Assembly (NCBI RefSeq): GCF_029846175.1 | Contig: NZ_JARWAC010000037.1 | Location: 1-64,000 of the forward strand | Direction of reading: 5' to 3' | Length of the DNA: 64,000 nucleotides | DNA from: Sphaerisporangium sp. TRM90804 | Lineage (GTDB): Bacteria > Actinomycetota > Actinomycetes > Streptosporangiales > Streptosporangiaceae | Shown: positions 3,765 through 19,056 of the stretch, piece after piece | How positions within the stretch are numbered: the stretch's first letter is position 1 | How the letters are laid out: every line of letters starts with the position of its first letter | Translations under genes and position numbers: made by a program | Notes under the pieces: model-generated | Seen by the model: the letters and a program-made list of their open reading frames with translations, nothing else | Databases searched by the model: none | What the model was told of the DNA's origin: nothing

Positions 3765-5195
3765 ATGAGAACCCTCTTGTGCCGGGTCGCCGCCGCCCTG
3801 CTGATCGCCGGCGCCCTCGTCGCCCAGCCCGCGGCGCCCGCCCAGGCCGCTCCGGGCACGATCACCAACGGGACGCAGTTCCGCGACACGGCCGGGAACG
3901 TGTTGCACGCGCACGGCGGCGGGGTCCTGAAGGTGGGCGCCTACTACTACTGGTTCGGCGAGAACCGCAACGCCGACAACACGTTCCGCGCCGTCTCCGT
4001 CTACCGGTCGACCGACCTGCTGAACTGGGAGTTCCGGCGGGACGTCCTCACGCGTACGTCCAGCGCCGAGCTGAACCTCTCCAACATCGAACGGCCGAAG
4101 GTCATCTACAACAGCTCCACCGGCCGCTACGTGATGTGGATGCACAAGGAGAACGGGCGGGACTACGGCGAGGCGCGTGCCGCCGTCGCCTCGTCGGCGA
4201 CCGTCGACGGCGACTACGCCTACCACGGCAGCTTCCGCCCGCTGGGCCACATGTCGCGTGACATCACACTCTTCAACGACGCGGGCACGGCGTACATGAT
4301 CTCGGCGGCGGACGAGAACTACGACCTGCACATCTACCGGCTCACCGCCGACTACCTGAACGTCGCCTCGCTGGTCGGCAACTTCTGGAACGACGCCCAC
4401 CGCGAGGCCCCCGCGATGTTCAAGCGGGGCTCGACGTACTTCCTGCTGACGTCCGGGGCCACCGGCTGGAACCCGAACCAGGCGAAGTACGCGACGGCCA
4501 CCGGCGTCTCCGGCCCGTGGAGCGGATGGACCAACGTCGGCGACGGCACGACCTTCGGCTCCCAACCGGCCTACGTCCTGCCGGTGCAGGGCACCTCGAC
4601 GACGAGCTACCTGTACATGGGCGACCGGTGGGCGGGCGCGTGGGGCGGCCCCGTGGGCGACTCCCAGTACGTGTGGCTGCCGATCACGTTCCCGTCCGCG
4701 ACGAGCATGAGCCTGAGCTGGCACCCGCAGGTCACGATCGACGCCGCCACCGGCGTGGTCACGGGCTCCGGCGCGGCGCCGTCGTACCGGGTCACGGCCC
4801 GGCACAGCGGCAAGGTGATGGACGTCGTCAGCGCGTCCATGGCCGACAACGCCGAGGTGAAGCAGTACCCGTGGAACGGCGGCGGCAACCAGAAGTGGCA
4901 GTTCCAGGACGCGGGCGGCGGCTACCTCCGGCTGGTGAGCCAGAACAGCGGCAAATGCCTGGACGTCGCCGGAGGCTCGACCGCCGACGGCGCGAACGTC
5001 ATCCAGTACACGTGCGGCGGGGGCGCCAACCAGCAGTGGCAGTGGGCCGCGACCGGCGACCACTTCCTCTTGAGAGCACGCCACAGCGGAAAGTGTCTCG
5101 ACGTCGTCAACGCCTCGAGCGCCGACGGAGCCGACATCCAGCAGTACACCTGCGGCGGCGGCGCCAACCAGCAGTGGACCCGCACCTCATCCTGA
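3765..5195 (+). CDS. Secreted GH43 (subfamily 24-like) galactanase with ricin/CBM13 lectin domain
   Basis: Protein of 476 residues: signal peptide 1-29 ending AQA, a GH43 five-bladed propeller about 30-335, then a ricin-type beta-trefoil about 343-475 with three QxW signatures (QKWQF, QQWQW, QQWTR). The opening (FRDTAGNVLHAHGGGVLK, YYYWFGENRN) resembles exo-beta-1,3-galactanases of subfamily 24, which trim the galactan backbone of arabinogalactan proteins. The lectin domain would hold the enzyme on galactose-containing glycans. The downstream CBM42 arabinosidase follows after 59 bases, so the two are probably co-transcribed and act together. Subfamily and substrate are inferred. Confidence 0.85.
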   Translation: MRTLLCRVAAALLIAGALVAQPAAPAQAAPGTITNGTQFRDTAGNVLHAHGGGVLKVGAYYYWFGENRNADNTFRAVSVYRSTDLLNWEFRRDVLTRTSSAELNLSNIERPKVIYNSSTGRYVMWMHKENGRDYGEARAAVASSATVDGDYAYHGSFRPLGHMSRDITLFNDAGTAYMISAADENYDLHIYRLTADYLNVASLVGNFWNDAHREAPAMFKRGSTYFLLTSGATGWNPNQAKYATATGVSGPWSGWTNVGDGTTFGSQPAYVLPVQGTSTTSYLYMGDRWAGAWGGPVGDSQYVWLPITFPSATSMSLSWHPQVTIDAATGVVTGSGAAPSYRVTARHSGKVMDVVSASMADNAEVKQYPWNGGGNQKWQFQDAGGGYLRLVSQNSGKCLDVAGGSTADGANVIQYTCGGGANQQWQWAATGDHFLLRARHSGKCLDVVNASSADGADIQQYTCGGGANQQWTRTSS

Positions 5196-9563: not shown

Positions 9564-10544
9564 TCAGGCGGGGGAGACGGCCCCGGCGAAGGTCGCGCGC
9601 AGGCGGGCGGTGGCGGCGGGGCCGGCGCCCAGGTGGTCCAGCCCGAGCAGGGCGGCGCCGACGACGGGCGGCACGTCGGCGATCACCAGCTCGGCGTGCG
9701 GGGCCAGTTCCGCGTAGCGCTTCTCCACCAGGGAGGTGAGCAGCGGGTGGCGGGCGGTGAGCACGCCGCCGCCGAGCACGACCTCGCACGAACTCTCCAC
9801 CAGCCGCAGGCGGCGCAGCGCGACCACGCCCATGAGGGCCACCTCCTCGGCCTGGCGTTCCACCAGGGAGCGGGCGACGGCGTCCCCGTCGGCCGCCGTC
9901 GCGAGCAGGGCGGGGACCAGGGCGTGCAGCCGTTCGCCCGGCAGCTCGCCGAAGTGCAGGCCGAGGACGACCTCCTCGGCCAGGCGGGTGCCGAAGCACC
10001 GGCGCACGACGTCCAGCAGGGCGGTGGCCGGGCCCCGGCCGTCCTCGGCGCGCACCGCGTGCCAGAGCACCTCCTCGCCGAGCCCGCCGCCGCCGCCCCA
10101 GTCGCCGCTGAGTCTGCCCAGCGCGGGGAACCGGGCGACCTCGCCGGTGGGGGACACCCCGACCGCGTTGATCCCCGCCCCGCACACGACGGCGACGCCC
10201 CACGGCCGCGAGGCCCCGGCGCGCAGCAGCGCGAAGGTGTCGTTGCCCACCACGGCCTCCCGGCCGTACCGGCGGGCCATGATCTCCTCGCGGAGCCGGT
10301 CCTCCTCGATCGGCAGGTCGGCGCCGGCCACGTACGCCGCGACGCGGTCGGCGAACGGCGGCCCGGCCGCGGGGCCGAGCGCGCGCCGCGCGGTCTCGCC
10401 GATGACGTCGACGGCCGCGCCCACCCCCAGGCTCTGCGGCAGGAACGGCCCGCCCCGGCCGCGGGCCAGGACGGTGCCGTCCTCGGCGACCAGGGCGACG
10501 TCGGTCTTGCTGTTCCCCCCGTCGACGGCGAGGACCGTTCTCAC
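9564..10544 (-). CDS. BadF/BadG-type sugar kinase (N-acetylglucosamine kinase family)
   Basis: ASKHA-fold ATP-dependent kinase of 326 residues. The phosphate-1 loop VLAVDGGNSKTDVAL is at residues 3-17, VVCGAGINAVG near 117 and the adenosine-loop GGGVLTARHP near 270. Family members phosphorylate GlcNAc or related sugars. Its GTG overlaps the TGA of the GH4 gene by 4 bases, so it is translationally coupled and last in the operon. The likely job is to phosphorylate the imported glycoside at C6 so that the GH4 enzyme can act on it, or to phosphorylate the sugar released. The substrate is not known. Confidence 0.85.
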   Translation of the reverse strand: MRTVLAVDGGNSKTDVALVAEDGTVLARGRGGPFLPQSLGVGAAVDVIGETARRALGPAAGPPFADRVAAYVAGADLPIEEDRLREEIMARRYGREAVVGNDTFALLRAGASRPWGVAVVCGAGINAVGVSPTGEVARFPALGRLSGDWGGGGGLGEEVLWHAVRAEDGRGPATALLDVVRRCFGTRLAEEVVLGLHFGELPGERLHALVPALLATAADGDAVARSLVERQAEEVALMGVVALRRLRLVESSCEVVLGGGVLTARHPLLTSLVEKRYAELAPHAELVIADVPPVVGAALLGLDHLGAGPAATARLRATFAGAVSPA

Positions 10545-11815
10545 GCCTCCACCGCCCCGTCGCCGGCCCAGGGGAGGTACCGGCGGTTGGCGGCCACCAG
10601 CCGCTCGGCCAGCTCCCTGGAGACCGACGCCTGGCCGATCAGCGGGTGGGCCAGCAGCGCGTCGGCGACCCGGTCGGCGCCGCCGTGCAGCGCCGCCTGT
10701 AGGGCCAGGTCCTCGTAGGCGGAGACGTGCGCGATGAGCCCGGCGTACAGGGGGTGCACCGGGTCGACCGGCAGCGGCGCGGCGCCGGAGGCGCCGATCC
10801 GCGCCGGCACCTCGATCACCGCGTCGTCGGCCAGGAACGGCAGGGTGCCGTCGTTGCGCACGTTGACGACCTGGGTGTCGCCCCGGTCGCCCGCCAGGGA
10901 CGCGATCAGCGCGACCGCCGCCTCCGAGTAGTACGCGCCGCCCCGCCTTTCCAGCAGCTTCGGCTTGGTGTCGACCGACGGGTCGGCGTACAGGGTGAGC
11001 AGCGACTCCTCCATGGCGGCGACCTCGGCGGCCCGGGAGGGCTTGGTGCGCTGCTCGGCCACCACGGCGTCGTGCTCGTAGAAGTAGCGCAGGTAGTACG
11101 AGGGCACGACGCCCAGGCGGCGCACCAGGGCCGCCGGCAGGCCGATGTCGGCGGCGATCTTCTCGCCGTGCTCGGCCAGCAGCCGGGGCAGCACGTCTTC
11201 GCCGTCGAGGTACACGGCCCGCTCCCAGGTGAGGTGGTTGAGCCCGACGTGGCCGAGCGAGATCCGGCCCGGGTCCACGCCCAGGTGGCGGGCGAAGCGC
11301 CGCTGGAAGCCGATGGCCACGTTGCACAGGCCGATCGCGCGGTGCCCCGCCCGCAGCAGCGCCCGGGTGACGATGCCGACCGGGTTGGTGAAGTCGACGA
11401 TCCAGGCGTCCGGCGCGACCTTCGCCGCGCGCTCGGCGATGTCCAGGACGACCGGCACGGTGCGCAGCGCCTTTGCCAGCCCGCCCGCCCCGGTCGTCTC
11501 CTGGCCGACGCAGCCGCAGGCCAGCGGCAGGGTCTCGTCGACGTTGCGTGCGGCCTGCCCGCCCACCCGCAGCTGCAGCAGCACGGCCTGCGCGCCGGCC
11601 GCCCCCTCCTCGATGGTGGTGGCCGTGCTCACCGCCGCGGGATGCCCGGCGCGGGCGAACATGCGCGAGGCCATCGCCGACACCAGCGACAGGCGCCGCT
11701 CGTCGGGATCGATCAGCGTGAGCTCCGACAGCGGCAGCTCCTCGCGCAATCGGGCGAAACCGTCGACCAGCTCCGGCGTGTAGGTGGAGCCGCCCCCCAC
11801 AACGGCCAGCTTCAT
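10541..11815 (-). CDS. GH4 family 6-phospho-glycosidase (6-phospho-beta-glucosidase-like)
   Basis: NAD- and metal-dependent GH4 enzyme of 424 residues that cleaves phosphorylated disaccharides by oxidation, elimination and reduction. Rossmann loop VGGGSTYTPEL is at residues 5-15, the metal-binding Cys is in GLCNVAIG (near 170) and His in GLNHLTW (near 200). The CN-type motif fits the 6-phospho-beta-glucosidase branch. The ATG overlaps the permease stop by one base and the kinase GTG overlaps its own TGA, so the three are tightly coupled. GH4 phospho-glycosidases usually partner with PTS uptake; here the partners are an ABC importer and a kinase, which is unusual. Confidence 0.9.
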   Translation of the reverse strand: MKLAVVGGGSTYTPELVDGFARLREELPLSELTLIDPDERRLSLVSAMASRMFARAGHPAAVSTATTIEEGAAGAQAVLLQLRVGGQAARNVDETLPLACGCVGQETTGAGGLAKALRTVPVVLDIAERAAKVAPDAWIVDFTNPVGIVTRALLRAGHRAIGLCNVAIGFQRRFARHLGVDPGRISLGHVGLNHLTWERAVYLDGEDVLPRLLAEHGEKIAADIGLPAALVRRLGVVPSYYLRYFYEHDAVVAEQRTKPSRAAEVAAMEESLLTLYADPSVDTKPKLLERRGGAYYSEAAVALIASLAGDRGDTQVVNVRNDGTLPFLADDAVIEVPARIGASGAAPLPVDPVHPLYAGLIAHVSAYEDLALQAALHGGADRVADALLAHPLIGQASVSRELAERLVAANRRYLPWAGDGAVEA

Positions 11816-12690
11816 CACTTGACTCCCGTCAGCTTGACGCCCTCGATGAACGCCTTCTGGGCGAAGAAGAACACGACGATCACCGGTGCCATGGCCAGCA
11901 GGGTGGCGGCCATGGTGAGGTTCCACTGGACCCGGTGCACGGTTTTGAAGGATGCCAGGCCCAGCGACAGCGTCCAGTGGGAGGGGTCGGTTCCCGCGTA
12001 CAGCAGAGGCCCGTAGTAGTCGTTCCAGCAGTAGAAGAACTGGAACAGCGCGACGGCGGCGATGGCGGGCCTGGCCATCGGCAGGATCACCCGCAGCAGT
12101 GTGCGCAGCTCGCCGCAGCCGTCCACGCGCGCGGCGTCGGAGTACTCCCGGGGGATGGTGACCAGGAACTGCCGCAGCAGGAAGATCGAGAACGCGTCGC
12201 CGAGCAGCATGGGCAGGATCAGCGGCCACAGGGTGCCGGTCAGGTCGAACCGGGCCCAGACGAGGTAGACCGGCACGGCCACGACCTGCGGCGGCAGCAT
12301 CATGGTGGTGACCACGAGCAGGAACGCCGGCCCGCGGCCGCGAAAGCGCAGGCGCGCCAGCGCGTAGGCCACCGGCACGGACGACAGCAGCATGAACACC
12401 GTGGCCAGCCCGGCGTACATCAGCGAGTTGACGATCCAGGTGAGCAGCGGCGCCCGCTGGAAGATGTCGGCGAAGTTGCCCCACTCCCACCGCCGGGGCC
12501 ACAGCTCGGAGGTGAGCGCCTGCTGGTCGGTCATCACGGCGGTCAGCGCGATGAACGCCAGCGGCCCGAGGAACATGAGGGCGGCGGCGACGGCGAGGGC
12601 GTGGGTGGCGATCCACGTCAGCGCGGTGCGGCGGCGGCGTGCGCGGGCACTCGCCGTGCGTGCTCCGGGCCGGGTGAGGGTCAGGGTCAT
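11815..12690 (-). CDS. Sugar ABC transporter permease (MalG type)
   Basis: Inner-membrane permease of 291 residues in the carbohydrate CUT1 family. About six transmembrane helices. The EAA loop, which contacts the ATPase, is visible as REYSDAARVDGCGELRTLLR (about 187-206) followed by VILPMARPA. The ATG overlaps the preceding permease stop (ATGA). No ATPase gene lies in the operon, so it probably uses a shared MsiK-like ATPase, as is common in actinomycetes. Confidence 0.93.
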   Translation of the reverse strand: MTLTLTRPGARTASARARRRRTALTWIATHALAVAAALMFLGPLAFIALTAVMTDQQALTSELWPRRWEWGNFADIFQRAPLLTWIVNSLMYAGLATVFMLLSSVPVAYALARLRFRGRGPAFLLVVTTMMLPPQVVAVPVYLVWARFDLTGTLWPLILPMLLGDAFSIFLLRQFLVTIPREYSDAARVDGCGELRTLLRVILPMARPAIAAVALFQFFYCWNDYYGPLLYAGTDPSHWTLSLGLASFKTVHRVQWNLTMAATLLAMAPVIVVFFFAQKAFIEGVKLTGVK

Positions 12691-13652
12691 GCCTCCTCCT
12701 CGGTGAGGCCGCGGAACTGCCGCAGGAGTATCAGGGTGAACACCATCGACACCGCGAACAGGATGAGCGCCAGCACGCAGGCGTATCCCATGGCGAAGTC
12801 GCGGAACCCCTGGTGGAAGAGCCATTCGGGGAAGGTGAGCGTCGACCCGTCGGGGTAGCCCGGGACGAACACCGTGCCGGCGGAGTCGGTGGCTCCCGAG
12901 GCCACCCGAGAGGCGACCATCGCCTGGGTGAAGTACTGGAGTGTCTGGATGACGCCGGTCACCGCCGCGAACATGACCACCGGCCGGATGACCGGCAGCG
13001 TGACGAGGAAGAACTGCTGCCAGGGGCCGGCGCCGTCCAGGGCCGCGGCCTCGTACAGCTGTTTGGGCACGTCGAGCAGCGCGGCCAGGAAGATGACCAT
13101 CAGGTCGCCGACCGACCACAGCGCGAGCAGGGTGAGCCCGGGCTTGGCCCACGACGGGTCGCCGAACCAGTCGGGGGAGGGCAGGCCAAGGCCCGACAGG
13201 ATGGCCGGCACCGGCCCGGTCCCGGGGTTGAGCAGGAACACGAACCCCAGCGTCCCGGCGACCAGCGGCACCAGCGACGGCAGGTAGAAGATCGTGCGGA
13301 AGAACCCGGTGCCGGCCTTCAGGCGGGTGACGAGCTGGGCCACGCCCAGGCCGAACGCCACCCGCAGCGGCACCATGACCACGACCAGCCACAGCGTGTT
13401 CCTGATCGCCGTCCACGCGGCCTCGTCCCGCAGGAGGTAGCGGTAGTTCAGCAGGCCCACCCATTCCAGGGTGAACAGGTCGTAGCGGTGGAAGGAGAAG
13501 TAGACCGTCGCGAGCAGCGGGTAGGCGAAGAAGACCGAGAACCCGATCAGCCAGGGGGACAGGAAGAGCAGCGCCGTGAGGCCGCCGCGGTTCCGGCCCC
13601 GCAGGCGGGCCGGCGCCGCGCCGCCGCGGCGCCCGAGCGCCGTGGTCGCCAT
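12687..13652 (-). CDS. Sugar ABC transporter permease (MalF type)
   Basis: Inner-membrane permease of 321 residues with about six helices (first: ALLFLSPWLIGFSVFFAYPL). The EAA loop reads PKQLYEAAALDGAGPWQQFF followed by LVTLPVIRPV. It starts 4 bases after the stop of the binding-protein gene and overlaps the second permease by 4 bases. Forms the heterodimeric channel with it. Confidence 0.93.
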   Translation of the reverse strand: MATTALGRRGGAAPARLRGRNRGGLTALLFLSPWLIGFSVFFAYPLLATVYFSFHRYDLFTLEWVGLLNYRYLLRDEAAWTAIRNTLWLVVVMVPLRVAFGLGVAQLVTRLKAGTGFFRTIFYLPSLVPLVAGTLGFVFLLNPGTGPVPAILSGLGLPSPDWFGDPSWAKPGLTLLALWSVGDLMVIFLAALLDVPKQLYEAAALDGAGPWQQFFLVTLPVIRPVVMFAAVTGVIQTLQYFTQAMVASRVASGATDSAGTVFVPGYPDGSTLTFPEWLFHQGFRDFAMGYACVLALILFAVSMVFTLILLRQFRGLTEEEA

Positions 13653-13656
13653 GTGA

Positions 13657-14985
13657 TCAGCCGCCCGCGGTCAGCTTGAGCTTCTCGTTGATGGTCGTGT
13701 CGACCTCGGCGAGCAGCTCGTCCAGGTCGGCGGCGCGTCCGGACTCCCACTTGATCTGCGCGTCCGACAGCGTCTGCTGGTTGAACACCGAGTTCAGGTG
13801 CGCGGGCAGGGTGCTGCTGGCGGGGTTGGCGAAGATGTCGAGGAAGGTCTGGAAGTTGGGGTCCTTCTTCAGCTTCGGCGACTTCAGCGCCGGCAGCGTG
13901 CTGGGCACGTTGCGCAGGGCGTTGGAGAGCGTCACCAGGGCGTCGGTGTCGGTGGTGAGGTACTTCACGAGCTGCCAGGCCGCGTCGGGGTGCTCGGCGC
14001 CGCGCGGTATGCCGATGACCGTGCCGGCGATGAACCCGGCCCCGTAGAGCTGGGGCTTGTCGTCGGCGACCGGGAGCGGCGCGGTGCCGTAGTCGAGGCC
14101 GGGCGCGTCGTGGGCGATCATCGCGTTGCGCCATTCGCCGTCGACGGCCATGGCGACCTTGCCCTTCATGAAGGGGTTGTCGGCCGACCACTCGTCGCCC
14201 AGGCTCTTGCGGAACTTCTCCAGCTTCTCGTGGCCGAACCAGCCGACGAGGTCCTTCTGCCAGTTCATGAGCTGCTTCCACGCCGGGTCGGCGCCGATGG
14301 CGGAGGTCCCGTCGGGGTTGATCCACTTGGCGCCGACCATGACGCCGGTGTGGATGGGGGCGTTCTCGTACATCTGGGTCGACGGGACGAAGCCCGCGAC
14401 CTCGATGTTCCCGTCCTCGTCGCGCACGGTGAGCTTCTTGGCCAGCTCGGCGAGCTCGGAGAGCGTCTTGGGCGGCTGGGCGCCGTCCATCAGCTTCTTG
14501 TTGTAGTACAGCCCGTAGGCGTCGGCGAGCATGGGCATGACGCACCGCTTGCCCTCGTACTGCGTGTACTCCGCCACCACCTTGGGGAAGATCGCCTCGT
14601 CGACGCCGGAGGCCGCCAGGTAGGGCTTGAGGTCCTGGAAGAGCCCGGTCTTGCAGAAGGTCGCGACGTTGTCGGTGGTGAACGACAGCGCCACGTCCGG
14701 CGGGTTGCCGCCGCGGACCGACTGGATGATCTGGTCGTCCTGGATCGCCTTGGTGGTCTTGACGGTGATCCAGGGGTGCGCGGCCCGGAAGCCGGCCAGG
14801 GCGTCGTCGAACGCCTTGATCTCGCTGTCGGCGCTGAAACCGTGCCACATGGTGATGGTGACCGGTGTCCGGTCGGGTGTGCTTCCCGCCTGGGGGGCGG
14901 CGGGCCGGTTCTCGGTCCCTGCGGTGCAGGCGGCGGCGAGCAGGGCGAGGGCGGCGACGGCCACGGGCAGCAGACGTGATCTCAC
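13657..14985 (-). CDS. Sugar-binding lipoprotein of ABC transporter
   Basis: Extracellular solute-binding protein (family 1), 442 residues. Lipobox LLAAAC with the lipidated Cys near residue 20 anchors it to the membrane. VTITMWHGFSAD (about 42) and the later PDVALSF, AMAVDGEW and GIPRGAEHPDAAWQLVKYL are typical of CUT1 binding proteins. The GTG start has GGAGG 7 bases upstream. First gene of the transport block and 110 bases downstream of the ROK gene, so it may have its own promoter. The sugar is unknown; the operon suggests a beta-linked disaccharide. Confidence 0.92.
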   Translation of the reverse strand: MRSRLLPVAVAALALLAAACTAGTENRPAAPQAGSTPDRTPVTITMWHGFSADSEIKAFDDALAGFRAAHPWITVKTTKAIQDDQIIQSVRGGNPPDVALSFTTDNVATFCKTGLFQDLKPYLAASGVDEAIFPKVVAEYTQYEGKRCVMPMLADAYGLYYNKKLMDGAQPPKTLSELAELAKKLTVRDEDGNIEVAGFVPSTQMYENAPIHTGVMVGAKWINPDGTSAIGADPAWKQLMNWQKDLVGWFGHEKLEKFRKSLGDEWSADNPFMKGKVAMAVDGEWRNAMIAHDAPGLDYGTAPLPVADDKPQLYGAGFIAGTVIGIPRGAEHPDAAWQLVKYLTTDTDALVTLSNALRNVPSTLPALKSPKLKKDPNFQTFLDIFANPASSTLPAHLNSVFNQQTLSDAQIKWESGRAADLDELLAEVDTTINEKLKLTAGG

Positions 14986-15094
14986 GGGGTTCCTCCTTCG
15001 GGCGGGCGGGGAAGGCGAGGAGCAGTAAAGGGATAAATGGGGATAAAAGGGGCACGGAATGGCGCGGTGAGCCGCCGCGGGGCGCTCACCGTGG

Positions 15095-16351
15095 TCAGGA
15101 GGGCGGAGGCGCGGCGGAGGCCGGGCGGTGCGCGGGCGTCGCCGGCGAGACGGTGGAGCTGAAGACCTCGTCGCGGGCGGTGGCGAGGGCCAGGCCCAGG
15201 GCGCCGGTCAGCACCGGGTTGCCGCCGACGGTGGAGACGCGCACGGGCGGCCGGGGGATGGTCAGGGCGTGCAGCTCCTTCTCCACCAGCCGGGCCAGCA
15301 GGTCGCCGCCGGCCAGCAGCGTGCCGCCGGTCAGCACCACGATCTCGGGGTCCACGACGGCGGTGATCGGGGCGACGCCCATGGCCACCCGGGCGGCGAC
15401 CTCGCGCAGCGCCTCGGACGCGCGCTCGGCCCTGACCCCGCCGAGCCCGGCCTCGCGCACGGCCTCCCGCACGGCTTCGGCGGGGCCGCCGCCGCGCAGG
15501 CCGTGGGCGCGCAGCACCTTCAGCACGGCGGGGCCGCCGGCCAGGGCCTGGAAGCCGTGGTCGCCCCGCTTGCCGGTCTCCCTGGTGGTGGGGGCGCCGA
15601 CGGTGGGCATGTACCCGACCTCGCCGGCGCCGCCGGTCGCTCCCCGGTGCAGGCGCCCGCCGAGCACGAGCGCGGCCCCGATGCCGTCCTCGGCCCACAG
15701 CAGCACGAAGTCGGCGTGTCCCCGGGCGATGCCGTGGGCCTGCTCGGCCAGGGCGACCAGGTTCACGTCGTTCTCCACGTCCACCGGCACGCCCCCCAGG
15801 CCGTCCCGCAGCGTCGCGACCAGGTCGGGGACGTGCCAGCCGGGGATGTGCGCGGCGTAGCCCAGGCGGGCGGTGGCCGGGTTGACCGCGCCCTGGATGC
15901 CGATGACCACCCGGTGCAGCGCCGCGGGGTCGACGCCCGCCTGCAGGCACGCGCCGCCGACCGCGGCGCGGACCCGCTCCACCACGTCGCCGGCCGCGCG
16001 GCCGGGGGTGGGGAGCCGGAACTCGCCGAGCGTGGCGCCGGTGATGTCGGCGGCCGTGGCCGCGATGCGCGCCGGGGTGACGTCCAGCGCCACGATGTGG
16101 GCGGCCGAGGGGTTGATCCGGTACAGCTCCGCGGTGCGGCCGGGCAGCCCCTCGCGGATGCCGTCCAGCACCACCAGCCCGGCCTGCTGCAGCCGCATGA
16201 GCAGCTGGGAGGCCGTCGGCTTGGACAGGCCGGTGAGCGCGCCCAGCTCAGGACGCGTCAGGGGGCCGCGCTCCAGCAGGACCCGCAGGGCGGCCTTGTC
16301 GTTGATCGCCCGTAGCAGGCTCGGCGTCCCGGGCTGGGTGTTGGCTGTCAT
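15095..16351 (-). CDS. ROK-family transcriptional repressor
   Basis: Protein of 418 residues counted from the ATG at 16351. An N-terminal winged helix (RPELGALTGLSKPTASQLLM, near residue 35) is followed by a ROK sugar-binding domain with VIGIQGAVNP, VENDVNLVALAEQ and HRGATGGAGEVGYMP. The ROK domain often carries a CxCGxxGC zinc motif; this copy lacks it at that place, which suggests a non-kinase sensor. It almost certainly controls the downstream ABC/GH4/kinase genes, and itself through the palindrome at 16429-16447. The start is fixed by the family pattern TPSLLRAINDKAAL just after the Met. Confidence 0.9.
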   Translation of the reverse strand: MTANTQPGTPSLLRAINDKAALRVLLERGPLTRPELGALTGLSKPTASQLLMRLQQAGLVVLDGIREGLPGRTAELYRINPSAAHIVALDVTPARIAATAADITGATLGEFRLPTPGRAAGDVVERVRAAVGGACLQAGVDPAALHRVVIGIQGAVNPATARLGYAAHIPGWHVPDLVATLRDGLGGVPVDVENDVNLVALAEQAHGIARGHADFVLLWAEDGIGAALVLGGRLHRGATGGAGEVGYMPTVGAPTTRETGKRGDHGFQALAGGPAVLKVLRAHGLRGGGPAEAVREAVREAGLGGVRAERASEALREVAARVAMGVAPITAVVDPEIVVLTGGTLLAGGDLLARLVEKELHALTIPRPPVRVSTVGGNPVLTGALGLALATARDEVFSSTVSPATPAHRPASAAPPPS

Positions 16352-16752: not shown

Positions 16753-19056
16753 ATTACTACCAATAATAATGAAGCAGGGCCTACCCGTCAAATCGAGCTC
16801 GCCAGGGAGCAGGAATACGTCACCCGGCTCTACGAAAGGCTCGACTTTCTGCGGGGCCGCACGCGGGCGCAGCTCGACGACGTGCTCGCCCAGGGCGGCG
16901 GAGGCACCCACCAGAACCGCTCCGAACGCGACACCTTCGCCGTCATGTACGCCGAACGGCTCGCGCAGCTCTGGGCCGTCGAGAGCGGCCTGTGCTTCGG
17001 GCGGCTCGACCTGGCCGAGGAGAAGCCGCTCTACATCGGCCGCCTGGGGCTGTCCGACGACGACCAGGCGCGGATGCTCATCGACTGGCGCGCGCCGGTC
17101 GCGCAGCCGTTCTACCGCGCCACGCCCCGCACCCCCATGGGCGTCACCCGCAGGCGCCACCTGCAGACCCGGGGGCGCCGCGTCATCGGCGTCGACGACG
17201 ACCTGCTCGACTTCGACCGCCTGACCGACGCCGACCGCGCCACGCTCAACGGCGAGGCCGCCCTGCTGGCCTCCCTCGGCGAGAAGCGCACCGGGCGCAT
17301 GCGCGACATCGTCGCCACCATCCAGGCCGAGCAGGACCGCATCATCCGCGCCGACCTCGGCGGCGTCCTGGTCGTCCAGGGCGGCCCGGGCACCGGCAAG
17401 ACCGTCGTCGCCCTGCACCGCGCGGCCTACCTGCTCTACACCCACCGCGAACGCCTCGCGCGCAGGGGCGTGCTGATCATCGGCCCCAACCTCACCTTCC
17501 TGCGCTACATCGAGCAGGTGCTGCCCTCCCTCGGCGAGACCGACGTCCTGCTGTCCACCATCGCCGAGATGTACCCCGGCGTCAGGGCCCGGGCCCGCGA
17601 GTCCGCCGAGGCGGCCGCGATCAAGGGGGCCGTCCGCATGGGCGACGTGCTCGCGCGCGCCCTGCAGGAGTGGCAGCGCATGCCCCGTCAGGCCATCGAC
17701 ATCAACCTCGGCCGCTACACCCTCAGGCTCGACCAGGGCACCACCGAGGCCGCGAGAAGCCGGGCCCTGCGCAGCAGGCGCCCGCACAACCAGGCCCGCG
17801 CCGTGTTCGTCCGCCACATCCTGAACGTCCTGTCCAAGCAGGCCGCCAAGCAGCTCGGCCGCGGCATGCTCGACGAGGACGACATGGCCGACCTGCGCGA
17901 GGACCTTCGCACCGAGCCCGCCGTCAAGAGCGCGCTCAACCGGCTGTGGCCCTACCTCACCCCGCAGCGGCTGCTCACCGGCCTGTTCGCCTCCCACGAG
18001 CGCATGGGCCGCGCCGGGCTGTCCGCGGCCGAGAGCCGGGCCCTGTACCGCGAGGCGCCCCGCTCCGGCGCGCCCGCCTGGACCGAGGCCGACGTCCCGC
18101 TGCTGGACGAGGCCGCCGAACTGCTCGGCGACATCGACCCGGCCGTGGTGCGCGCCGCCGCGCTGCAGGCCGAGGAGGACCTCGCCGCCGCCCGCCGCGC
18201 CGAGGAGGACGAGCGCAGCTCCGAGCTCGCCTACGCCCGCGAGGTGCTGGAGCTCACCGGCATGTCGGAGATCGTGGACGCCGAGCGGTTCGCCGCCCGC
18301 CACCGCGACGACGGCCTCGACCTGACCACCGCCGAGCGCGCCGCCGCCGACCGCACCTGGGCCTACGGCCACATCATCGTCGACGAGGCCCAGGAGCTCT
18401 CGGCGATGGCCTGGCGGATGCTGATGCGGCGCAGCCCCAACCGTTCGATGACCGTCGTCGGCGACATCGCCCAGACCGGGTCGGCCGCCGGAGCCGCCTC
18501 CTGGGCCGAGGTGCTCGACCCCTACGCGCGGGGCCGGTGGCGCGAGGAGTCGCTGACCGTCAACTACCGGACCCCCGTGGAGCTGATGACGGTCGCCGCC
18601 GACGTCCTGGCCCTGGTCGGCCCCTCGCTCAAGGCGCCGGAGTCGGTGCGCGAGACCGGCGTGCGGCCGTGGGCGCGCCAGATCTCCGGGCCGCGCGAGA
18701 TCGGCGGCGTCGTCACCGGGGAGATCGTGCCCGACGGGCGGCTCGTCGTGATCGTGCCCGCCTCCCGCGCCGAGGAGCTCGGCGCGGCGGTCACCTCCAC
18801 GGTGCCCGGCGCGGTGGCCGGGCCCGGCGCCGGCGCGCTGGAGGCCCCGGTGGCCGTGCTCACCGTCGCCGAGGCCAAGGGCCTGGAGTTCGACGCGGTG
18901 ATCGTGGCCGAACCGGGAGAGATCCTCGCCGAGTCGCCACGCGGAGCCGGAGACCTTTACGTGGCGCTGACCCGCGCGACCCGCAGGCTTGGTATCGTCC
19001 ACACCGGCGAACTGCCCGCCGTCCTGTCGCGTTGCGAGCGGGTGCCGGCGGGCTGA
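16753..19056 (+). CDS. HelD-like superfamily 1 helicase (RNA polymerase-associated)
   Basis: Protein of 767 residues if it begins at ATT 16753. N-terminal coiled coil (QIELAREQEYVTRLYERL) matches HelD proteins, which enter RNA polymerase and recycle stalled complexes, in some species conferring rifampicin resistance. Walker A GGPGTGKT is at 210-217; Walker B HIIVDEAQELSAMAW, the motif-III-like MTVVGDIAQTGS, ESLTVNYRTPVELM and C-terminal LYVALTRATRRL are present. No ATG, GTG, TTG or CTG precedes the coiled coil in frame after the TAA at about 16726. CCGGAG lies 7 bases before the ATT. GTG 16882 would delete the coiled coil. Start therefore unusual. Confidence 0.85.
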   Translation: MTTNNNEAGPTRQIELAREQEYVTRLYERLDFLRGRTRAQLDDVLAQGGGGTHQNRSERDTFAVMYAERLAQLWAVESGLCFGRLDLAEEKPLYIGRLGLSDDDQARMLIDWRAPVAQPFYRATPRTPMGVTRRRHLQTRGRRVIGVDDDLLDFDRLTDADRATLNGEAALLASLGEKRTGRMRDIVATIQAEQDRIIRADLGGVLVVQGGPGTGKTVVALHRAAYLLYTHRERLARRGVLIIGPNLTFLRYIEQVLPSLGETDVLLSTIAEMYPGVRARARESAEAAAIKGAVRMGDVLARALQEWQRMPRQAIDINLGRYTLRLDQGTTEAARSRALRSRRPHNQARAVFVRHILNVLSKQAAKQLGRGMLDEDDMADLREDLRTEPAVKSALNRLWPYLTPQRLLTGLFASHERMGRAGLSAAESRALYREAPRSGAPAWTEADVPLLDEAAELLGDIDPAVVRAAALQAEEDLAAARRAEEDERSSELAYAREVLELTGMSEIVDAERFAARHRDDGLDLTTAERAAADRTWAYGHIIVDEAQELSAMAWRMLMRRSPNRSMTVVGDIAQTGSAAGAASWAEVLDPYARGRWREESLTVNYRTPVELMTVAADVLALVGPSLKAPESVRETGVRPWARQISGPREIGGVVTGEIVPDGRLVVIVPASRAEELGAAVTSTVPGAVAGPGAGALEAPVAVLTVAEAKGLEFDAVIVAEPGEILAESPRGAGDLYVALTRATRRLGIVHTGELPAVLSRCERVPAG

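Follow-up and report, generated by a model that had tools for sequence, protein, structure and literature searches.

The 64,000-nucleotide window analysed here (positions 1 to 64,000 of contig NZ_JARWAC010000037.1 from Sphaerisporangium sp. TRM90804) carries a six-gene cluster on the minus strand, at positions 9564–16351. The cluster encodes a ROK-family repressor, the solute-binding protein (SBP) and two permeases of an ATP-binding cassette (ABC) importer, a family 4 glycoside hydrolase (GH4) and a BadF-type sugar kinase. The best-supported reading, and one regarded as fairly probable, is that the kinase 6-phosphorylates an imported beta-disaccharide, which is then cleaved by the GH4 enzyme. 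The importer would take up an unphosphorylated disaccharide or oligosaccharide with beta linkages, fragments of the cello or glucomannan type being the most likely candidates, and the kinase would move the gamma-phosphate of ATP onto O6 of the non-reducing sugar. The GH4 enzyme, with NAD+ and a metal ion, would then cleave the 6-phospho-disaccharide to glucose-6-phosphate and a free sugar, which could be phosphorylated by the ROK glucokinase of the genome. From the observed gene order and overlaps, the protein families, the phospho-GH4 markers, the kinase fold, the shift in its motif and the co-occurrence of the genes, we infer the order of these steps, the use of a disaccharide by the kinase, phosphorylation at O6 and the identity of the sugar.

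A wider proposal, whose chances are put at about even, is that BadF kinases with a GD[WF]GGG motif are ATP-dependent disaccharide 6-kinases that make up a family of their own. In these enzymes, an aromatic residue replacing Glu153 of human N-acetylglucosamine kinase (NAGK), beside a conserved Asp, would act as a platform for the second sugar. Combined with ABC import, they would provide a phospho-disaccharide pathway free of the phosphotransferase system (PTS) in seven sampled families of Actinomycetota, with analogues in Chloroflexota, Fusobacteriota and Deinococcota.

The gene cluster and its conservation

The first gene, a ROK-family transcriptional repressor (15095..16351, minus strand; Pfam ROK 1.5e-26 and a MarR-type helix-turn-helix), is the probable sugar-responsive regulator of the operon. 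It is followed on the minus strand by the SBP gene (13657..14985, GTG start; Pfam SBP_bac_8 7e-32, also SBP_bac_1), permease 1 (12687..13652; Pfam BPD_transp_1 2.2e-9) and permease 2 (11815..12690; BPD_transp_1 7.6e-18). The last two genes of the cluster encode the predicted 6-phospho-beta-glycosidase (10541..11815; Glyco_hydro_4, PF02056, and Glyco_hydro_4C, PF11975) and the BadF/NAGK-type kinase (9564..10544, GTG start; PF01869, BcrAD_BadFG, 1.5e-23), a proposed ATP-dependent disaccharide 6-kinase. The SBP and permease 1 genes are separated by 4 bases, and overlaps of 4 bases, 1 base and 4 bases join permease 1 to permease 2, permease 2 to GH4 and GH4 to the kinase. The original prediction had described ABC permeases, a GH4 enzyme and a BadF kinase joined by overlapping stops and starts, with which these coordinates and Pfam matches agree. 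No PTS EII gene was detected within the six-gene cluster by Pfam searches and gene calls, and none of its genes encodes an ATPase, a function for which actinomycetes usually rely on a shared MsiK-type protein.

Among 120 relatives, 49 of the 54 kinase matches are preceded on their strand, within 10 kb, by a GH4 gene. Likewise, a kinase is found within 10 kb of 49 of the 53 GH4 matches with at least 55% identity (fragments included) and of none of the nine counted with 35–41% identity; lower-ranking GH4 matches were left out of this count, except for fragments of 65–66%. The five kinases without a same-strand GH4 gene within 10 kb belong to G042, G053, G059, G067 and G071. In G071 the opposite strand has a GH4 gene at a distance of about 7 kb, and G042, G053 and G067 each contain a second kinase with GH4. 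When 396 genomes of Actinomycetota were searched, the kinase was found in 28, spread over seven sampled families (E-values up to 1e-30), and GH4 in 36 (E-values up to 1e-80), including every one of the 28 kinase-bearing genomes. The GH4 enzymes of the eight genomes with GH4 only are of 36–48% identity, as is that of one of the 28 (G487: GH4 39%, kinase 30%). Apart from the genome of TRM90804 itself, the pair lies on one contig within 2.6 kb in 24 of 27 genomes, on the same strand in 12 and divergently in 12, and on different contigs in three. Because proximity is retained in two layouts, a pathway shared by GH4 and kinase can be argued. The counts in relatives (49/54) and in kinase-bearing genomes (28/28) show that the cluster is not a chance assembly.

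The ABC genes appear to be tied to the kinase less tightly than GH4 is, since in the named loci, the best 80 of 478 relatives, GH4 is present in 77 and the SBP with both permeases in 57, only ABC genes resembling those of the cluster being counted. All six genes occur in 51 of these loci, and 67 have a ROK homologue (at least 45% identity) upstream on the kinase strand. In three named strains the cluster is split into an ABC–kinase locus without GH4 and a ROK–GH4–kinase locus without similar ABC genes: Planobispora longispora (L125/L079), Planomonospora venezuelensis (L137/L069) and Herbidospora sakaeratensis (L138/L116). The kinase is kept in each half, as would be expected for a step between uptake and hydrolysis. 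Tandem clusters were also observed in Bailinhaonella thermotolerans (L101/L059), in which ROK, unlike permeases (28%), GH4 and kinase genes are followed by ROK, SBP, permease and kinase genes without GH4.

The GH4 enzyme and the kinase

The closest solved relatives of the GH4 enzyme are 6-phospho-beta-glucosidases (1s6y, 5c3m, 1up4/6/7), followed by maltose-6'-phosphate glucosidase (1u8x) and others, with galacturonidase and alpha-glucosidases last. It was aligned with BglT, the ChbF of Rahnella, a Klebsiella 6-phospho-alpha-glucosidase, the GH4 enzymes of other BadF clusters and two MelA-type GH4 enzymes. In this alignment R90, Q105-E106, C164-N165, H194, Y241 and R261 of the cluster enzyme correspond to R87, Q102-E103, C162-N163, H192, Y241 and R261 of BglT, among which we take C162 and H192 to be metal ligands, Y241 the catalytic Tyr, and R87 and R261 phosphate-site residues. 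BglT R87, Q102-E103 and R261 are common to the cluster enzyme, the PTS-linked ChbF, the Klebsiella enzyme and the GH4 enzymes of other BadF clusters. The two MelA-type enzymes have Thr or Tyr, a gap followed by Asp, and Leu or Thr at these positions, and a third (L198) has Thr, gap-Asp and Val at 87, 102-103 and 261. All of R87, Q102-E103, C162, N163, H192, Y241 and R261 are kept in 89 of 89 GH4 enzymes of relatives (at least 50% identity, match longer than 1000 bases), and likewise in eight of eight from more distant Actinomycetota. The sequence CN[VI]P is a signature of beta-type GH4 enzymes; in the 89 homologues Asn itself is invariant, and the residue after C-N-V is Ala in 88 and Gly in one. 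A Deinococcus GH4 enzyme has Glu at the position of BglT Asn163. According to an excerpt of PMC10628242, the substrate of BglT and GlvA must be 6-phosphorylated. The cluster enzyme is predicted from its sequence to be a 6-phospho-beta-glycosidase, and the phospho-type GH4 of the original prediction gains support from the retained markers and the nearest solved structures.

The host genome encodes another GH4 enzyme, with a PfkB-like sugar kinase frame nearby (L043, 8114-9463 and 10330-11547; G000:C1), in which the metal Cys is followed by Asp, a feature of the alpha type. In L045, a GH4 gene of like start and a similar frame lie directly upstream of the GH4 gene of the kinase clade.

The kinase matches PF01869 only among Pfam families and is not a ROK protein; the NCBIfam NagK model scores 46.7 bits against a cut-off of 370. 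Its AlphaFold2 model (pLDDT 93.0, pTM 0.88) is matched best by MurK (8zo3; Z 33.8, root mean square deviation (rmsd) 2.1, 304 residues), followed by Sulfolobus hexokinase (Z 29.9, rmsd 2.9, 298 residues) and human NAGK (2ch5; Z 28.7, rmsd 3.4, 314 residues). The BadF/N-acetylglucosamine (GlcNAc)-kinase assignment made earlier is consistent with PF01869 and with this resemblance to MurK and NAGK, and the modelled common fold leaves the substrate undecided. D102 of the kinase aligns with NAGK D107, presumably the catalytic Asp, and is invariant across 36 aligned rows.

The sugar-site motif reads GDE[GA]S[GA] in NAGK, MurK, Chromobacterium 1zc6 and the host's other BadF kinase, SDDGSA in Sulfolobus hexokinase and GDLGSG in a Rhizobium NagK. 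GDEGS[GA] is absent from the cluster kinase, in which it is replaced by GDWGGG at residues 147-152 (10089..10106, minus strand), W149 aligning with E153 of human NAGK. GDWG is present in 98 of 98 homologue copies, 94 with GH4 within 10 kb and four without; some genomes are represented twice in this set, whose loci come from two collections, and the short kinase of L060 dropped out. Among 26 BadF proteins read from relatives, three belong to the same clade; Trp and Phe are absent at this position from the remaining 23, and 21 of these keep Ser. These came from 29 BadF loci, of which L189, L194 and L197 were dropped (no match of 450 bases). Such loci reach 1.5 kb to each side, which makes the apparent absence of GH4 from them a weak observation, and for L191 and L193 a GH4 gene is present in the longer loci L045 and L046. 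Across the phylum GD[WF]GGG was found in 24 of 24 kinases (Trp in 20, Phe in four), with GH4 on the same contig for 22; the duplicates L224/L231, L229/L232 and L225/L239 were counted once, G093, G346 and G409 were left out, and extra BadF copies in L232 (GDAGST), L234 (GDSA) and L238 (GDFGDE) lie outside the 24. Elsewhere, the motif reads GEFGGG in a Chloroflexota kinase and GNSGGG in Haliovirga, and is lost in four Deinococcus kinases. The cluster kinase is thus best described, by its sequence, as a divergent BadF sugar kinase of a separate clade marked by GD[WF]GGG, with a proposed substrate. The host's second BadF kinase (L041, 7798-8868; G000:C7:4000-23000) has a canonical GDEGSG and lies close to a mannitol PTS permease and to a frame that, as judged by eye, is like an RpiR regulator.

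The fold also bears on an alternative order, in which GH4 would split the unphosphorylated disaccharide and the kinase would then phosphorylate the released glucose, glucosamine (GlcN) or GlcNAc. Among solved relatives whose substrate is named, the nearest are monosaccharide kinases, as is usual for BadF kinases, and this layout is found in L198 (G079), where a MelA-type GH4 gene lies about 1.1 kb from a kinase with GDEGSA, and SIS-like and aldolase-like frames were seen by eye. L198 likely represents import, hydrolysis and then a monosaccharide kinase. However, its GH4 lacks the phospho markers and its kinase has GDEGSA, and the cluster of TRM90804 differs on both; moreover, one host glucokinase scores over its NCBIfam cut-off, so another kinase for glucose would be superfluous. 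Hydrolysis before phosphorylation is considered unlikely for the cluster.

Host sugar genes, candidate substrates and evidence to the contrary

The host genome searched (8.3 Mb, 86 contigs, 98.9% completeness) contains two HPr genes and two PF02378-type EIIC genes. One EIIC is of the mannitol type (over the cut-off) and the other of the GlcNAc/glucose type (best matches, over a partial stretch and under the cut-off). A host without PTS, considered as a candidate explanation, was rejected on finding these HPr and EIIC genes. Neither of the two PF02378-type EIICs is of the beta-glucoside type, EIIC families outside PF02378 lying beyond this search. The claim of a PTS-independent route is thus supported as regards a beta-glucoside type among these two EIICs, but not as regards the PTS itself, genes for which exist in the host. 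The host also has an operon, judged from reading frames, with SBP, permease, LacI and GH1 genes, which reads as an ordinary ABC and GH1 operon. Since the host has both PTS genes and this operon, the cluster would be a parallel route rather than a substitute for a missing PTS.

Delivery of a phosphorylated substrate by the PTS, with the kinase salvaging the free reducing-end sugar, is a second alternative. The two HPr genes are in its favour, as is a Priestia locus (L161) that combines lactose/cellobiose PTS subunits, GH4, DUF871, murQ and a BadF kinase with canonical GDEGSG, probably an N-acetylmuramic acid (MurNAc) or GlcNAc kinase. Given that the cluster encodes an ABC importer but no PTS component, and that the two EIICs found within PF02378 are of the mannitol and GlcNAc/glucose types, this alternative is held to be very improbable. 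Sequence comparisons with Priestia and L198 indicate that other divisions of labour exist, with both GH4 markers and kinase motif in L198 differing from those of the cluster.

Clues to the sugar come from neighbouring genes and from the SBP. A GH9 gene with a CelD_N domain adjoins the kinase in L136, L138, L046 and L053, and a similar GH9 occurs in L045; these proteins bear only distant sequence likeness to solved GH9 enzymes. A host GH9 on contig 19 is 66-68% identical to the L138 and L136 proteins. The closest solved relatives of the SBP are 4r9f 'MBP1' (1.8e-32), which we take to be a mannan-oligosaccharide-binding protein, and then the maltodextrin-binding protein 1elj (6.4e-20). Because of the GH9 neighbours and 4r9f as closest solved relative, the leading candidate for the substrate is a fragment of a beta-1,4-linked glucan or of glucomannan.

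Several observations weigh against phosphorylation of an imported disaccharide by the kinase. The genomes of the phylum sample are related, and the Fisher value for co-occurrence overstates their independence. The full set of cluster-type ABC genes is missing from 23 of the 80 named loci, and six GH1 genes of the host can already serve unphosphorylated beta-glucosides. The role of R87 and R261 at the phosphate site is presumed, and the host's second GH4 likewise keeps these markers. As to the motif, G230 carries an additional, unlike BadF copy with Phe but no GGG (GDFGDE), the Haliovirga and Deinococcus kinases have no aromatic residue there, and GDEGS is also missing from a haloarchaeal BadF kinase that has no GH4 partner. 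A GH4 gene beside a kinase proves nothing alone, because the canonical kinase of Priestia sits with PTS and GH4 genes; a GH4 neighbour as sufficient proof of disaccharide phosphorylation was rejected, being contradicted by Priestia L161 and L198. Finally, L057 contains ROK and a GDWGGG kinase with no GH4 or ABC matches, and a GDWGGG kinase of Streptomyces clavuligerus (L141) has no GH4 within 9 kb, the extent of the search in that genome. The last two cases would also suit a kinase acting on another sugar (a signal, cell-wall or amino sugar), and paired with GH4 because both belong to one regulon, not because they handle one metabolite. The co-occurrence in all 28 genomes and the proximity retained in two layouts speak against this explanation, the least probable of those considered.

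Beyond the cluster, a HelR/HelD-type RNA polymerase motor gene (16882-19056, plus strand) lies divergently from the ROK gene and scores 693 bits with NCBIfam motor_HelR_2 (cut-off 1100). A homologue is present in 62 of the 80 named loci, and a HelR close to the S. clavuligerus kinase has 36% identity to that beside the cluster. A GH43 enzyme with a ricin-type lectin domain is encoded at 3765-5195 (plus strand), and a long frame adjoining it has a weak, sub-cut-off match to an arabinan-degrading enzyme.

Comparable clusters and known systems

Outside Actinomycetota, GH4–BadF pairs were found in Fusobacteriota, Deinococcota and Chloroflexota. Haliovirga abyssi has GH4, a YdjC-family (ChbG-like) deacetylase, a BadF kinase, ABC genes and UgpC, near nagE. 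The Rahnella cluster (L144) contains the chbBCA PTS genes with ChbF and ChbG and, by analogy, would be the Haliovirga pathway with PTS replacing the ABC importer and kinase. Four Deinococcus plasmids carry GH4, a BadF kinase and a gene annotated as GlcN-6-phosphate deaminase in three plasmids and as 6-phosphogluconolactonase in one; transport genes lie alongside in three of the four. On a Chloroflexota plasmid GH4 adjoins BadF, and two ABC genes lie next door on the other strand. The Klebsiella 6-phospho-alpha-glucosidase gene sits beside a PTS EIIC gene. Within a distant family of Actinomycetota, L231 contains an SBP, a DegT aminotransferase, GH4, a SIS protein, a polysaccharide deacetylase, a BadF kinase and a MalK-type ATPase. 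In L238 and L239 frames resembling the SIS and MalK-type genes accompany the GH4–kinase pair, family tests having been made in L231. The content of these three clusters suggests an amino-sugar substrate. On a Paenibacillus guangzhouensis plasmid (L149), a 6-phospho-beta-glucosidase GH4 gene is divergent from murQ and from genes for a MurR/RpiR regulator, ABC components and anhydro-MurNAc kinase. This set may serve a disaccharide derived from peptidoglycan.

Some organisms and operons have GH4 phospho-glycosidases but no matching PTS, and to our knowledge the source of the phosphorylated substrate of these enzymes has so far been unclear. A kinase that travels with a phospho-type GH4 makes this question testable with two small soluble proteins. 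If the proposal is correct, a disaccharide activity would be added to a kinase family known for monosaccharides and cell-wall sugars, the clade could be named more aptly than 'N-acetylglucosamine kinase' or 'BadF ATPase', and a means would be suggested by which bacteria without a suitable PTS supply phospho-specific GH4 enzymes. Searches of open-access PubMed Central (PMC) turned up no paper describing a BadF kinase together with GH4 and an ABC importer.

Among the known systems, CebEFG/BglC-type operons resemble the cluster in the ABC import of a beta-glucoside. An excerpt of PMC3377646 describes actinomycete cellobiose ABC operons that have LacI regulators, including two from Streptosporangium roseum. 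In contrast to the cluster, the free sugar is hydrolysed there by GH1 or GH3 enzymes, and the excerpt names no GH4 or sugar kinase (PMC3377646).

BglT of Thermotoga maritima is a characterised GH4 6-phospho-beta-glucosidase among the closest solved relatives of the cluster enzyme. Because T. maritima, as far as we know, lacks a PTS, the source of phosphate for BglT is open. Both PF01869 and PF02056 match in T. maritima (a family search, giving no positions), and no paper on TM1280 or TM1281 was found in open-access PMC. PTS-linked chb/cel operons (ChbBCA, ChbF and ChbG, as in Rahnella L144) have the same GH4 marker residues, and their GH4 acts on an intracellular 6-phospho-disaccharide. In the cluster, however, the phosphate would come from ATP through a soluble kinase after ABC import, and not from phosphoenolpyruvate during transport.

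Similarly, the BadF GlcNAc/MurNAc kinases, human NAGK and MurK of C. acetobutylicum, share the fold and the aligned Asp102 with the cluster kinase but take monosaccharides and carry GDEGS[GA] in place of GD[WF]GGG. The reaction proposed for the cluster kinase is that of BglK, the ATP-dependent beta-glucoside kinase of Klebsiella (EC 2.7.1.85). BglK is presumably a ROK protein, and the NCBIfam BglK model matches the ROK repressor of the cluster and not its kinase. With ATP, BglK yields 6-phospho-glucosides in vitro, according to an excerpt of PMC10628242. The cluster kinase is of the BadF/NAGK type, so its action would be BglK-like but that of a different family.

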